64,000 nucleotides of DNA from Ruegeria sp. THAF57 (lineage in GTDB: Bacteria; Pseudomonadota; Alphaproteobacteria; Rhodobacterales; Rhodobacteraceae). A program made the translations under genes and the position numbers. The stretch covers positions 1-64,000 of the forward strand of contig NZ_CAIWNQ010000007.1 in NCBI RefSeq assembly GCF_903914075.1, read 5' to 3'. The stretch's first letter is position 1. The number at the start of each line of letters is the position of its first letter. A model generated the notes under the pieces. It made no database searches. It had not been told where the DNA came from and saw only the letters and a list, made by a program, of their open reading frames with translations. Below, in pieces: positions 1 through 4,816 of this stretch.

Positions 1-74
1 GGGATGGAGCAGCCCGGTAGCTCGTCAGGCTCATAACCTGAAGGTCGTAGGTTCAAATCCTACTCCCGCAACCA
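1..74 (+). tRNA. Initiator tRNA-Met (CAT), 5' end cut off by window
   Basis: The cloverleaf is readable: a D arm with AGCCCGGTAGCTCGTCAGG, the anticodon arm with CAT at about 32-34, the T arm GGTTCAAATCC, and an encoded CCA at 72-74. Three G:C pairs in the anticodon stem and the run TCCCGCA in the 3' acceptor strand are typical of bacterial initiator tRNA. The first three acceptor-stem bases lie left of the window. The discriminator side would give the unpaired C1:A72 of an initiator, but base 1 is not visible. The 3' half of the gene is also the antisense template for the end of the neighbouring serine recombinase, so it is the probable attachment site. Confidence 0.9.
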
Positions 75-1695
75 GCGATATTTGCGAAACCGCCTCAGCC
101 ATGTCGGCTTGGGCGGTTTTTGCTTTTTCGTCAATTGCTAAGGCCAAGATACCGGCAAGATCTCCATGCAGATCCATGTCATATCCGTCTTCAGTAGGTG
201 TCAGCACCACCTTGTCGATTAGAGCGCGTAGCGCCTCACCAGCTTCGCTGCGCACATCGGCTTCATTGAGAGCGTTGGCAAGATCGCGGACTTTGGAGTG
301 GTAGACGTCTGACATGTTGGGATGCAGCGTCGGTTGGGGCGCTGGCACCGCGTTCAAGTCATTTTCCAATTGGGTTTTCCTCGCTTCCAACTCAGCCATT
401 TTGTCTTTGACGGTCGACGCCGGCGCTCCGTCGATCAGTGCTTGAACCAGACGAGCCAGAGCGTGATTGGTCTTTGCGAGTTCGGCTTCTTTGGATGCGC
501 GAGACGATTGGGACCTGGTTCTCAACCGGTTGGTCTCTGCGACAAACTCCTCGCAAAAAGCATTGAACAGTTCCGGGTTCATCAATTGGTGAGAAAGCGC
601 AGAGAGAACCCTGTCTTCAACCTTGGTTCGTGCAATGGACTTGCGATTATCGCACGTACCTTTGCTGCGCGCGCTAGAGCAGCCGATGTGGGTTTGTGAA
701 ATCACAGACATGCCGCCACCACAGACACCGCAAGTAAGAAGACCTGATAGTAGGTATTTTGCCCGTCGGGCGCGGCCCAGTGCGTGTCCCCGGTTGGTCC
801 GCTTAGGGAGAGCTGTTCGTTTTTGGCGTGACTTTGCAGCGTCTCAAAGTTCCTGTGGAATGATGCGCAATTCCGGTGTCAGCACTGAAATCCAGTCTTC
901 AGGCGGGTTGAGTCGTGAAACCCGGAGCCCGGTTTTAGGATCCTTAAGGTACCGAAGCCTGTACCAAACCAGGCGGCCAACATAGAGCTCATTATTTAAG
1001 ATGCCGGTCCCGCGGCTTATGTTGCCGTGAATGGTGGAAGCGCCCCACGCCTTTCCTCTTGGACCAGGAACACCGTCTTCATTGAGAGCCTGGGCAATTT
1101 TGCGTGGTGAAATGCCCGCCACATAGTCTTCAAAGATGCGGATGATTATGATTGCTTGGTCTGGATTGATTTTGCGTTCACCGGTTGCTTGTGACCCGTC
1201 GGCCTCCAGGCGTCGCACGACATCATACCCGTAGCTGTTCCCGCCTCCTGATCGCCCAGCTTCAACGCGACCACGCAGACCGCGACGTGTTTTGTCTGCG
1301 AGATCCTTTAAGAACAGAGCGCTCATCGTGCCCTTCAGCCCGATGTGCAACTCAGATATCGATCCTTCAGAAAGGGTGACAATCCGAACTCCTGCGAATG
1401 CCAGGCGCTTGTAAACGCCTGCGATGTCTTCCTGGTCCCGGGAAATGCGGTCTAGGGATTCCGCTAGTACAACTTCGAACTTGCCAGCTGACGCGTCTTG
1501 AAGAAGGGATTGAATGCCTGGGCGGATCAGGCTTGCGCCTGAAATCGATCGGTCACTGTAGCTATCCACAATGGTCCAACCTTCGCTCCCCGCGCGTTCG
1601 TGGCAAAGGCGGAGTTGATCTTCGATCGATGCGTCGCGCTGATTGTCGGAGCTGTAGCGGGCGTAGAGAGCAACGTGTGGTGTTTGTTCAATCAT
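31..1695 (-). pseudogene. Large serine recombinase interrupted by an in-frame TGA
   Basis: This is a resolvase-type site-specific recombinase. The N-terminal catalytic domain begins with VALYARYSS, where Ser15 is the likely nucleophile, and a Recombinase domain follows. After PQEL at residue 283 an in-frame TGA (844-846) stops translation. Without any frame change the reading continues as DAAKSRQ, then a zinc-ribbon with CGVCGGGM and the partner Cys pair, a charged coiled coil, and the tail VAGVGFEPTTFRL. Family members usually read ELWDA at this place, so TGG to TGA is the simplest explanation. The full reading frame is about 554 codons, normal for the family. The start ATG overlaps the upstream tyrosine recombinase stop by 4 bases. 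The last 14 codons are antisense to the tRNA. If TGA is not read through, the product lacks the zinc ribbon and coiled coil and is probably inactive. Confidence 0.85.
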
Positions 1696-2804
1696 CTGCG
1701 ACTCCGTCGTTTGTAGGCATTGGCGTTGGCAACACCGAACCCCATAGCGTCAAAATATTTTTTTGCAGCATCGTTCTGACGTGCCTGATTGTAGTGCCTC
1801 TCAGAGCTTCGAAGAGTGCTATGGCCCAAAATTGATTTTGTGACACCAACGTCCTCACCGCTGTGGGTTGCCACATAAGTCGCCGCGCAGTCACGAAAAA
1901 AATGCGGTCCAATGCGAACCGCAAATTTCTCTCTTGTGCGTTTGGCGATGACTTCGCCAAGTTCCTTGTAAGGCATCACCTGAACGCTGCGACCCACCCA
2001 AAGCTCTGAACACGCCGTTTTTCGCTCTTGTGCCGTTGTTTTTTGGCTCTGATAGGTCAGCAAAATGGAGCGTCCGACGTTCAAGTAGAATTCGAGGTCA
2101 GCCCGCAGGATTTCGGGGAACGGGCCTTCCCAGTGCTGCTTGGTTTTAGAAAGCTCCGGCGGGATGTGAATGCGCCATGCGTCCCCGACTTGTTTGATGT
2201 GCTGACCGATTTGAAGTGAGCCAAATGCTCGGATGCGAAGCGGGCGAAGAGCAAGGAAGCTGATCGCAAAACCATCTCGGACCAAGAGTGCACCGTGAAT
2301 GGGACGAGTCTCAATCAGCGCGAGTCCCTCATTTTGTAGGTCACGCCCCAAGTTCAAAAGGTCGCAAACGGCAACAATCTTCGAGCTTTTGTTTCGAGAA
2401 GGCACAGCCTTCCAGCGCAAATTGCGCTCCATAGTGCACAGAACGGACCTGTCTACATTCGGCCAGGCAACCCGGCAGTAGCTGAGCAGGTCTTTAAAAT
2501 ACGTATGTACCGATACCGGACTGACTCGCACCCTTAGAAAATCCAAATAGGCAAGTAGGGTTGCTTCGCCAATGTTTGAAGGCACAACTGGCACATTTAC
2601 ATGCCTTTCAACAAGAAGCCATTTAAGGAACCTGCCTACAGTCAATTCTACCTTCTCCTGGGTAAAAGCACTCCAGGAAGCAGCCGGGCCACTTCCATCA
2701 AGTACGTTGCCTGGTGTCTTGGCGGCCACCCAGGCCTGCTTATCCTCGGGTGACCATTCGCAAAAGGGTAGGGTACTGTAGCTGATCTTGAGGGGCGCTA
2801 TCAT
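1692..2804 (-). CDS. Tyrosine recombinase (second of the recombinase operon)
   Basis: This 370-residue phage-integrase-family protein would cut and rejoin DNA through a tyrosine intermediate. The C-terminal catalytic domain shows LRPLRIRAFGSL (first catalytic Arg region), HFFRD (His301, Arg304), ILGHST (His328) and the nucleophile Tyr338 in ERHYNQA. The N-terminal third, with FLKWLLVERHVNVP and LAYLDFLR, fits a SAM-like core-binding domain. Its start overlaps the end of the upstream tyrosine recombinase and its stop overlaps the start of the serine recombinase, each by ATGA, so translation is probably coupled. It differs strongly from the upstream recombinase, so this is not a recent duplication. 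The basic tail YKRRSRR may contact DNA. All catalytic residues seem to be present. Confidence 0.88.
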   Translation of the reverse strand: MIAPLKISYSTLPFCEWSPEDKQAWVAAKTPGNVLDGSGPAASWSAFTQEKVELTVGRFLKWLLVERHVNVPVVPSNIGEATLLAYLDFLRVRVSPVSVHTYFKDLLSYCRVAWPNVDRSVLCTMERNLRWKAVPSRNKSSKIVAVCDLLNLGRDLQNEGLALIETRPIHGALLVRDGFAISFLALRPLRIRAFGSLQIGQHIKQVGDAWRIHIPPELSKTKQHWEGPFPEILRADLEFYLNVGRSILLTYQSQKTTAQERKTACSELWVGRSVQVMPYKELGEVIAKRTREKFAVRIGPHFFRDCAATYVATHSGEDVGVTKSILGHSTLRSSERHYNQARQNDAAKKYFDAMGFGVANANAYKRRSRR

Positions 2805-4309: not shown

Positions 4310-4659
4310 GTTGTCTCCTGAAGACAGATGTTGAAAATTGGGAAAACACTCGCTGAAGAAAATGACGTATTCTTACTGGAGGGTTTCCACGCGCAGAGAT
4401 TGACCCACTGAAAACAAACAAGAAATCGGCGCTGCCGGTATGGTGGCGTGCGACGATCGGTTTTGTGCGTGCGCACAAAACTATCGAGGTCGTAGGGCGT
4501 AACCCTTACGACGCGTCCAACCTTCACCGAGCTTAGTTTGCCGAGCTCGATCCAACGAAAAACGGTGCGATGAGCTACACCAAAGTAGTTAGCAACGTCA
4601 GCAACACTGAGCATGCCTGCCAGGCCCTCTGGGTTCGGGTTATTGGTCACCGGCTTCAT
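4306..4659 (-). CDS. Excisionase/MerR-like HTH DNA-binding protein
   Basis: This is a protein of about 117 residues when started at the ATG of MKPVTNN. Residues 16-60 form a winged HTH of the excisionase type: MLSVADVANYFGV, then TVFRWIELGKL, then VKVGRVVRVTPYDLDSFV. Such proteins bend attachment-site DNA or choose recombination direction. The remaining 55 or so residues are low in recognisable structure and unusual for the family. The ATG lies about 20 bases inside the end of the preceding small gene, and the stop overlaps the first tyrosine recombinase by ATGA. That fits a regulator or directionality factor made together with the recombinases. An upstream in-frame start would add about 30 residues, but it would put the start deep inside the previous gene. 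Confidence 0.7.
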   Translation of the reverse strand: MKPVTNNPNPEGLAGMLSVADVANYFGVAHRTVFRWIELGKLSSVKVGRVVRVTPYDLDSFVRTHKTDRRTPPYRQRRFLVCFQWVNLCAWKPSSKNTSFSSASVFPIFNICLQETT

Positions 4660-4816
4660 CCTCCAATTTGCCTTTTGACGGGTCAGAGAGACTTTCTTGC
4701 TCGTGATCGAGCCATTGCCTGGCCGCAGAACGAGCAATGACGCGCACGACATCGTGGAGTCGATGAACGAACTCCAGATCTTCTGACGATGTCTTATGCT
4801 GTGTTTTGTCTCTCAT
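4640..4816 (-). CDS. Small hypothetical protein heading the recombinase operon
   Basis: This 58-residue reading frame, started at the ATG of MRDKTQHKTS, has a predicted helical, charged core (FVHRLHDVVRVIARSAARQW) and an acidic end. Its final 20 bases overlap the start of the HTH gene, in keeping with the tight packing of the following recombinase genes. I do not recognise a family. A longer in-frame version exists upstream but would overlap the separate 280-codon gene, so the short form is preferred. The ribosome-binding site is weak, so this is a tentative call based mostly on gene spacing and direction. Confidence 0.35.
   Translation of the reverse strand: MRDKTQHKTSSEDLEFVHRLHDVVRVIARSAARQWLDHEQESLSDPSKGKLEDEAGDQ

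Follow-up and report, generated by a model that had tools for sequence, protein, structure and literature searches.

A serine recombinase and a pair of tyrosine recombinases recur in one operon in Alphaproteobacteria, often at the initiator tRNA-fMet gene, and are present as a decayed copy in Ruegeria sp. THAF57

Introduction

Whether recombinases of two unrelated chemistries that are encoded side by side act as one integration system is the question raised by the beginning of the DNA stretch analyzed here (hereafter, the window: bases 1–64000 of contig C7, 64,000 nt in all, from the 4.28 Mb genome assembly of Ruegeria sp. THAF57, which consists of 20 contigs). In this region, a gene for a large serine recombinase (LSR) and two genes for tyrosine recombinases (tyr1 and tyr2), together with genes for two small proteins, SML and a helix-turn-helix (HTH) protein, lie on the minus strand next to an initiator tRNA-fMet gene. 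A previous sequence-only reading of this DNA had interpreted HTH, tyr1, tyr2 and LSR as a fixed set of enzymes of both chemistries forming a cooperative integration system. According to the present results, the arrangement is real, recurrent and more ordered than was first described, and the window holds only a decayed copy of it. It is probably an integration module for tRNA-fMet, made up of SML and LSR, with an intercalated and separable HTH–tyr1–tyr2 cassette; cooperative integration by all three enzymes is possible but less likely.

Gene Content of the Operon and Decay of the Copy in the Window

In the direction of the tRNA, the minus-strand order of the genes was SML (4640–4816), HTH (4306–4659), tyr1 (2801–4309), tyr2 (1692–2804) and LSR (31–1695), the open reading frames (ORFs) on this strand being 4306–4752, 2801–4309, 1692–2804 and 844–1695. 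A chain of four minus-strand genes joined by three ATGA overlaps of four bases (4306–4309, 2801–2804 and 1692–1695) had been described previously and was found again, but that description was incomplete: SML is a fifth gene, LSR is interrupted, and tyr1 carries an internal deletion.

The LSR product matched the Pfam families Resolvase (E-value = 4.2 × 10−26) and, following it, Recombinase (E-value = 2.4 × 10−16), whereas the zinc ribbon gave only a weak match in the C-terminal piece encoded in the window (16.9 bits against a cut-off of 25.3). The LSR profile A3 matched the TP901-1 integrase (5 × 10−20), and the N-terminal part of the window LSR was 73% identical to the LSR of genome G107. The gene is broken by a single in-frame TGA at 844–846, beyond which the same frame stays open as far as position 31; therefore, 31–1695 is one gene with one in-frame stop. 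Its frame terminates in ...VAGVGFEPTTFRL, and the stop codon at 31–33 coincides with nt 34–36 of the tRNA. The tyr2 gene (370 aa) has kept the six catalytic residues R190, K220, H301, R304, H328 and Y338, and this R-K-H-R-H-Y set was invariant in 14 of 14 aligned sequences (alignment A2). Taken singly, the protein matched the XerC model weakly (1.7 × 10−5, far below the cut-off) and no Pfam integrase family; as a profile of 14 sequences, it matched the solved XerD (1.7 × 10−16). The tyr1 product matched Pfam Phage_integrase (E-value = 3.7 × 10−10) and is 502 aa long, compared with 555–647 aa in the aligned full-length relatives. Positions 37–395 of the profile built from the relatives matched 3218–4291 and positions 452–586 matched 2816–3217, back to back, whereas positions 396–451 were absent from the window, though the DNA is continuous there. 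It follows that approximately 56 positions have been lost, including the first catalytic arginine, which is present in the other 13 aligned copies and falls in a gap in the window copy; in the aligned relatives the catalytic set is complete.

The HTH gene (4306–4659, alternative start at 4752) encodes a small excisionase-type protein with matches to Pfam HTH_17 (E-value = 2 × 10−9) and, above the cut-off, to the NCBIfam family 'excise' (TIGR01764, 5 × 10−9), the latter being a family match only. SML (58 aa, motif VRLLAxxAAR) overlaps HTH and matched no Pfam family; it also adjoins LSR in loci that have no tyrosine recombinase pair. Outside this locus, the closest tyr1 match in the genome was 29% identical over approximately 120 residues, and no second LSR was found at an E-value of 1 × 10−40. 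The window copy of the operon is thus decayed and is apparently whole in relatives, full-length ORFs for all three recombinases being present in at least six loci (L030, L032, L033, L034, L037 and L038). Judged by profile, the three genes also appear intact in L223 (Ruegeria lacuscaerulensis HKCCA6521) and L191 (Leisingera sp. ANG59).

Recurrence and Spacing of the Genes

In the family sample (thresholds of E = 1 × 10−15 for tyr1, 1 × 10−10 for tyr2 and 1 × 10−40 for LSR), tyr1 was found in 14 of 248 genomes, tyr2 in 15 of 246 and LSR in 51 of 246. The tyr2 gene stood directly upstream of an LSR of the same family in 12 of its 15 genomes (G000, G043, G027, G031, G034, G035, G104, G107, G137, G141, G154 and G240), although tyr1 was not found in G240 at the above threshold. 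An LSR was present anywhere in 13 of the 15 tyr2 genomes versus 51 of the 246 overall (Fisher p = 2.6 × 10−8). The three tyr2 genomes outside the 12 were G101, with no LSR nearby, G223, whose contig ends just past tyr2, and G024, where tyr2 and LSR lie far apart on opposite strands of one contig; in G110, only a remnant of tyr2 precedes the LSR. The class-wide sample contained tyr1 in 14 of 385 genomes, the genome under study included (E = 1 × 10−40), and among the other 13, seven had an LSR downstream (one at approximately 1 kb), four had none (two of them with a broken cassette) and two were at a contig edge. A scan of named genomes with the LSR profile gave at least 543 confirmed relatives, and among the best 80 that were kept, the tyrosine pair was directly upstream in six (two Leisingera, three Ruegeria and one Paracoccus aerius) and absent from 74, in eight of which less than 1.5 kb of upstream sequence was visible. 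All parts of the operon were also present on an Azospirillum plasmid, with tyr2 and LSR broken. Azospirillum oryzae, where tyr2 is beside LSR by coordinates and tyr1 is approximately 22 kb away, was kept outside the counts.

Altogether, 27 loci combining the tyrosine pair with an LSR (composite loci) were listed, 26 of them different (L222 being the L041 record), from several families of Alphaproteobacteria, and 23 remained after removal of LSRs that were at least 93% alike. The expectation that the block would recur as a syntenic unit beyond this genome was thus borne out. It should be noted that L025 and L105 were labelled solo LSR loci although each has a tyrosine pair elsewhere on the stretch, that L093, also labelled solo, has a broken LSR and no SML match, and that, among the tyr-only rows, some are truncated by a contig end (L040, L160 and L166) and one locus is represented twice (L039/L105). 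The two broken genes of the window copy would suit an assembly by chance in one degraded island, without any functional link, but this explanation is highly improbable in view of the number of different composites, their spread over several families and the association found in the family sample. Outside bacterial genomes, the best match to the LSR in the phage collection was 49% identical and came from a Microcystis phage. A near-DNA search with a Ruegeria composite as the query returned 42 plasmid records, none covering 80% of it, and the ten listed records matched only approximately 50–60 nt at the tRNA end.

The distance from the tyr2 stop to the LSR start was −4 to +3 nt in 19 of the 27 composites (26 different), 35–153 nt in seven and 975 nt in one. 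The tyr1/tyr2 junction ranged from −11 to +15 nt in all measurable loci except L038 (−44, or −8 by an alternative start rule). These values were obtained with the nearest possible start codon, a rule biased to tight values, and another rule gives larger distances in some loci. Tight tyr2/LSR spacing across the composites points to a linkage beyond chance, and the fact that the junctions are tight with tyrosine cassettes from different clades suggests that joint translation has been selected for. A single frame of 856 aa joining tyr2 and LSR in G027 was considered as a fusion and rejected: the usual tyr2 ending sits in another frame and overlaps the LSR by ATGA; thus, the joined frame is a frameshift product.

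Position of the Tyrosine Cassette between SML and LSR

The neighbourhood of the LSR genes without a pair was analyzed with an SML profile built from seven SML proteins of composite loci and applied at a lenient threshold to both strands of 93 solo loci (89 different and four duplicate records; 1.86 Mb). A match was located within 3 kb upstream of the LSR in 74 of the 93 loci, and 73 of the 81 SML matches lay 0–200 nt upstream of it on the same strand, with a median score of 22.5 bits near the LSR versus 10.5 bits for the eight matches elsewhere. This concentration just upstream of solo LSRs indicates that SML belongs with the LSR. With the HTH profile (likewise lenient; three of the examined loci served as seeds), matches upstream of tyr1 were found in 22 of 27 composite loci and in 8 of 11 tyr-only stretches. 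The order SML, HTH, tyr1 was present in 20 of the 27 composites; among the other seven, L191 and L212 had HTH only, and L035, L161 and L206 are cut by the end of the contig close to tyr1, while L091 and L097, which have no tyr1, were left out of this examination. On the evidence of these profiles, SML is the LSR's own neighbour, and HTH–tyr1–tyr2 sits between the two in the composites. The sequence-only reading had allowed for the LSR being a later insertion with boundaries of its own; what was found is a tyrosine cassette lying inside the SML–LSR pair of the LSR.

Such a position could mean that HTH–tyr1–tyr2 is an autonomous mobile element that moves in the manner of Tn554, RIT or GInt elements and has repeatedly landed in the SML–LSR gap, the LSR being a mere landing pad with no cooperation between the enzymes. 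The cassette does occur without an LSR directly downstream, namely, on Roseomonas and Pukyongiella plasmids and in G101, G314 and G654. In the last of these (L167), the LSR-less cassette is followed, as judged by eye, by an HTH-like ORF and an integrase-like ORF of 409 aa, and the cassette may thus have other integrases as partners as well. However, no direct repeat was found between the cassette edges, the longest common word in the 60-nt flanks of 20 composite loci being 6–8 nt, and site-specific insertion of the cassette at the SML–LSR junction is not supported by these flanks. The tight spacing at both edges likewise looks selected rather than random. Movement of this kind therefore appears possible but rather unlikely.

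tRNA-fMet as the Probable Target and the Ends of the Element

The window begins inside the initiator tRNA-fMet gene, nt 4–77 of which occupy positions 1–74 of the plus strand (nt 33 being position 30). The same nucleotides recur without a difference in contig C16 (6.3 kb) of the same genome, which ends directly past the shared gene, and contigs C6 and C8 end within tRNA-fMet on the other strand. Contig C16 looks like a collapsed rRNA operon; therefore, the assembly probably broke at a repeat, namely, an rrn-linked tRNA-fMet. The tRNA-fMet of the composite in G141 lies approximately 4 kb after tRNA-Ile and tRNA-Ala, as in an rRNA operon. ARAGORN reported no tRNA anywhere in the window, presumably because the gene is truncated. 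A degenerate second copy of tRNA-fMet was noticed 124 bp past the first at the end of contig C6 of G000 (L116, 5026–5077), and contig C8 has the same intervening sequence and diverges within the second copy.

Sequence of tRNA-fMet was found at the LSR end in 21 of 26 different composite loci, in agreement with the earlier idea that the block is found at this gene, as well as in 54 of 89 different solo loci (75 of 115 different LSR loci overall), and in none of 11 tyr-only loci. The matches were partial in L161 (nt 1–47) and L170 (nt 24–47). Because the site is found at LSR loci and at none of the tyr-only loci, the insertion site appears to go with the LSR and not with the tyrosine pair, and the occupation of the same site by pair-less LSRs suggests that the pair is not needed for the choice of target.

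The full tRNA-fMet was the commonest form (15 composite and 32 solo loci). Detached 3' halves of the tRNA started at nt 33 in 12 loci (2 composite and 10 solo) and at nt 28–32 in eight further loci, whereas five more fragments starting at nt 23–30 were cut by the end of the stretch and are uninformative; in L034, L089, L097 and L104, unrelated sequence precedes the detached half. In G035, a full tRNA-fMet and a copy of nt 33–77 lie 6.8 kb apart in the same direction, with the composite LSR ending at the latter. This pattern, together with the starts at nt 33, fits a crossover at the anticodon loop and tandem accretion of elements, and the stop codon of the window LSR adjoins this putative crossover point.

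For the opposite end of the window element, comparison with genomes of the same genus gave only a zone in which collinearity starts (6063–6084): alignment begins at 6063 with G270, at 6070/6071 with G254 and at 6083 with G286, with different sequence upstream, and the variable stretch from tRNA-fMet to this zone is at most approximately 6.0 kb. The flank at 6063–6613 precedes a phosphatase-like gene and has a second copy of approximately 547 bp in contig C34 of G254. Two short 3' fragments of the tRNA (18 and 20 nt) in G107, approximately 29 and 23.5 kb from the tRNA, are possibly decayed ends of other elements.

Phylogenetic Analysis and Re-Pairing of Cassettes and LSRs

The unrooted LSR tree was built after near-identical sequences (at least 93%) had been dropped (from 120 to 88 rows); the tyrosine recombinase trees excluded L158, L212, L222, L223 and short pieces, and the tree of composite LSRs excluded the same four loci. 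In the LSR tree, the composite label required 8 changes (at least six of them forced by starred branches) versus 20 in shuffled data; it is clustered, yet no single branch separates the composites from the rest. The presence of an LSR was not clustered in the tyr2 tree (33 rows; 8 changes versus 9.5 in shuffled data) or in the tyr1 tree (31 rows; 11 versus 9.6). An autonomous cassette would leave such a scatter, though some of the tyr-only rows are simply cut by contig ends.

The trees also differed in topology. Both tyrosine recombinase trees paired L030 with L159, L033 with L157 (below the star level in the tyr2 tree) and L032 with L161, whereas the LSR tree paired the window with L032 (SH-aLRT 100), L030 with L033 and L157 with L163. 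In the approximately unbiased (AU) test, the tyr2 data rejected the pairing of the window with L032 (p = 0.005), and the LSR data rejected L032 + L161 (p = 0.006), L030 + L159 (p = 2 × 10−8) and L033 + L157 (p = 5 × 10−97). The rows of the window tyr1 and tyr2 are long branches in their trees. This conflict indicates that cassettes and LSRs have been re-paired during evolution, as an autonomous cassette would also lead one to expect. A 'fixed set', as had been supposed, is not what was found, given the LSRs without a pair in 74 of the 80 best loci, the cassettes without an LSR and the conflicting trees.

Alternatively, the five-gene set could be an ancestral cooperative integrase of both chemistries, of which solo LSRs and tyr-only loci are reduced descendants, the tree conflict being due to gene conversion among LSRs at the common tRNA site. 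Composite LSRs do stand on several deep branches with solo groups among them, LSR genes are brought close to each other in tandem arrays at one tRNA, and the genes are tightly spaced. Nevertheless, most LSRs of the family occupy the site without the tyrosine pair, and gain and loss are indistinguishable in the unrooted LSR tree. Such an ancestry is considered improbable.

Proposed Mechanism

The preferred reading, held to be probable, is an SML–LSR module integrating at tRNA-fMet, between whose two genes the separable tyrosine cassette is placed in a minority of elements, mostly with tight start–stop spacing; two unrelated recombination chemistries seem to have been combined like this on more than one occasion. 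Serine integrases act on attP and attB, and excision by them usually depends on a directionality factor. The LSR would join attP to attB at the CT of nt 33–34 of the tRNA, and the tRNA would be rebuilt from the 45-nt 3' half borne by the element. SML, which is placed where such a factor could be, may serve the LSR as a small accessory protein or as its directionality factor. Together with the excisionase-type HTH protein, the tyrosine recombinases presumably make up a second complete system, whose directionality factor would be HTH. The tyrosine pair itself may catalyse another, coordinated reaction of the island (excision, resolution of arrays or its own transfer) and not the choice of site. 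As to the task of the tyrosine system, most weight is placed on such a coordinated accessory reaction and then on an autonomous cassette. A stronger form of cooperation is put forward only tentatively: the serine integrase and the tyrosine pair, each with its own directionality factor (SML and HTH, respectively), would be coupled in an operon and act in turn on one island, for example, with the LSR inserting at tRNA-fMet and the pair excising, resolving or re-targeting it, the whole having been assembled several times independently.

Several points weigh against the module described here. No tRNA-fMet end was found in 35 of 89 solo and 5 of 26 composite LSR loci, and among these 40 loci, 27 had at least 2 kb after the LSR start, while 13 end within 2 kb. 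The tyr-only stretches L040, L160 and L166, which contribute to the zero count of tRNA ends, are cut by contig ends, and L039 belongs to the G024 contig (L105), which carries an LSR and tRNA-fMet approximately 11 kb away. A search by tRNA pattern found only the tRNA itself and no attR in the window, nor was an attR found for the tyr-bearing elements of G035, G141, G104 and G034 in approximately 24–43 kb on the element side. The SML matches in solo loci are individually weak (9–28 bits) at a lenient threshold, the profile was seeded by seven composite loci, and SML also stands ahead of HTH in 3 of 11 tyr-only stretches. As for the re-pairing, the tyr2 data do not reject L030 + L033 (p = 0.064), L157 + L163 is borderline (p = 0.047), and the tested pairs were picked after the trees had been seen. 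The functions assigned to SML, HTH and the tyrosine pair are predictions.

Neighbouring Observations

Upstream of the operon, an ORF of 280 aa (4891–5733, minus strand) had no credible Pfam match (best E-value = 0.14) and no PHROG match. Farther along the window, the region 48001–52000 has a GC content of 0.60–0.64, compared with approximately 0.45–0.58 in other 1-kb windows, and is a possible foreign insert; it contains an ORF (48769–50946) carrying DUF5906. In L034 (G035), an ORF of 1079 aa, Cas9-like by eye from its start, lies on the opposite strand approximately 1.2–4.4 kb upstream of tyr1. ORFs of approximately 700–790 aa were seen approximately 0.5–3 kb upstream of the solo LSRs of L092, L096, L099, L100, L101, L102, L104 and L106; by eye, the ORF of L096 resembles that of L100, and the ORF of L102 that of L106.

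Comparison with Known Systems

No description of a serine recombinase and a tyrosine pair in one operon was found in the titles and abstract openings of open-licence PubMed Central texts among the matches listed. The closest analogues of the LSR are serine integrases that target tRNA genes. Paracoccus phage vB_PamS_Pami6 has a serine recombinase whose target is tRNA-Met (excerpts of PMC6536676), and mycobacterial AICEs use one that targets tRNA-Leu, integration into tRNA genes by serine recombinases being called rare in the excerpts of PMC3218068. In both cases, as here, the serine recombinase of an integrated element has a tRNA gene as its target; the excerpts of PMC6536676 and PMC3218068, however, mention no tyrosine cassette beside the serine gene such as stands there in the present operon.

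RIT elements likewise have three adjacent recombinase genes with short overlaps (4–8 bp, in the excerpted part of PMC3414803), but all their enzymes (the RitA, RitB and RitC families) are described there as tyrosine recombinases, whereas the third enzyme of the present operon is an LSR, which places it outside RIT. There was no Cupriavidus record among the plasmid matches of tyr1 or tyr2, the presence of the RIT plasmids in the collection not having been checked. Tn554-like elements, like the operon, pair a long tyrosine recombinase with an adjacent short one (611–828 aa and approximately 350 aa, respectively; same source, PMC3414803); in contrast to the operon, the third gene there, where present, is TnpC-like, and the excerpts mention no LSR partner. 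The long and short pair found here was compared with TnpA and TnpB by description, and no Staphylococcus or Rhodococcus record occurred among the plasmid matches of tyr1 and tyr2.

GInts (ginABCD, PMC5385486) and SE (intA-tfp-intB-srap, PMC10214605) share with the composites a multi-recombinase operon at one edge of an island, as far as the passages of these papers go. Unlike the composites, both are of the tyrosine type only: the word 'serine' is absent from the two main texts, and the passages name no tRNA-fMet target (PMC5385486 and PMC10214605). GInts are defined by three integrase-type proteins plus GinD, whereas two tyrosine recombinases and an LSR were found here, gene content being what was compared. 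Tripartite integrative and conjugative elements (ICEs) are divided into three segments, and every segment has a tyrosine integrase of its own; the present genes, in contrast, lie at a single locus and include one serine enzyme among the three recombinases. Three recombinase genes together at the element end are also carried by certain streptococcal ICEs, but these are triplets of serine integrases, according to the portion of PMC4701971 compared.

Thus, in the portions of the papers compared, RIT, GInt, SE, Tn554 and the serine triplets each combine enzymes of one chemistry. A recurrent, compact set of two chemistries would be a natural system for studying the coordination of two recombination pathways on one element, and since LSRs of one family occur at the same tRNA either with the pair or alone, the effect of the pair would be measurable by comparison. 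Few serine integrases have been reported at tRNA genes, and an LSR family with a 45-nt tRNA half-site would enlarge their number.

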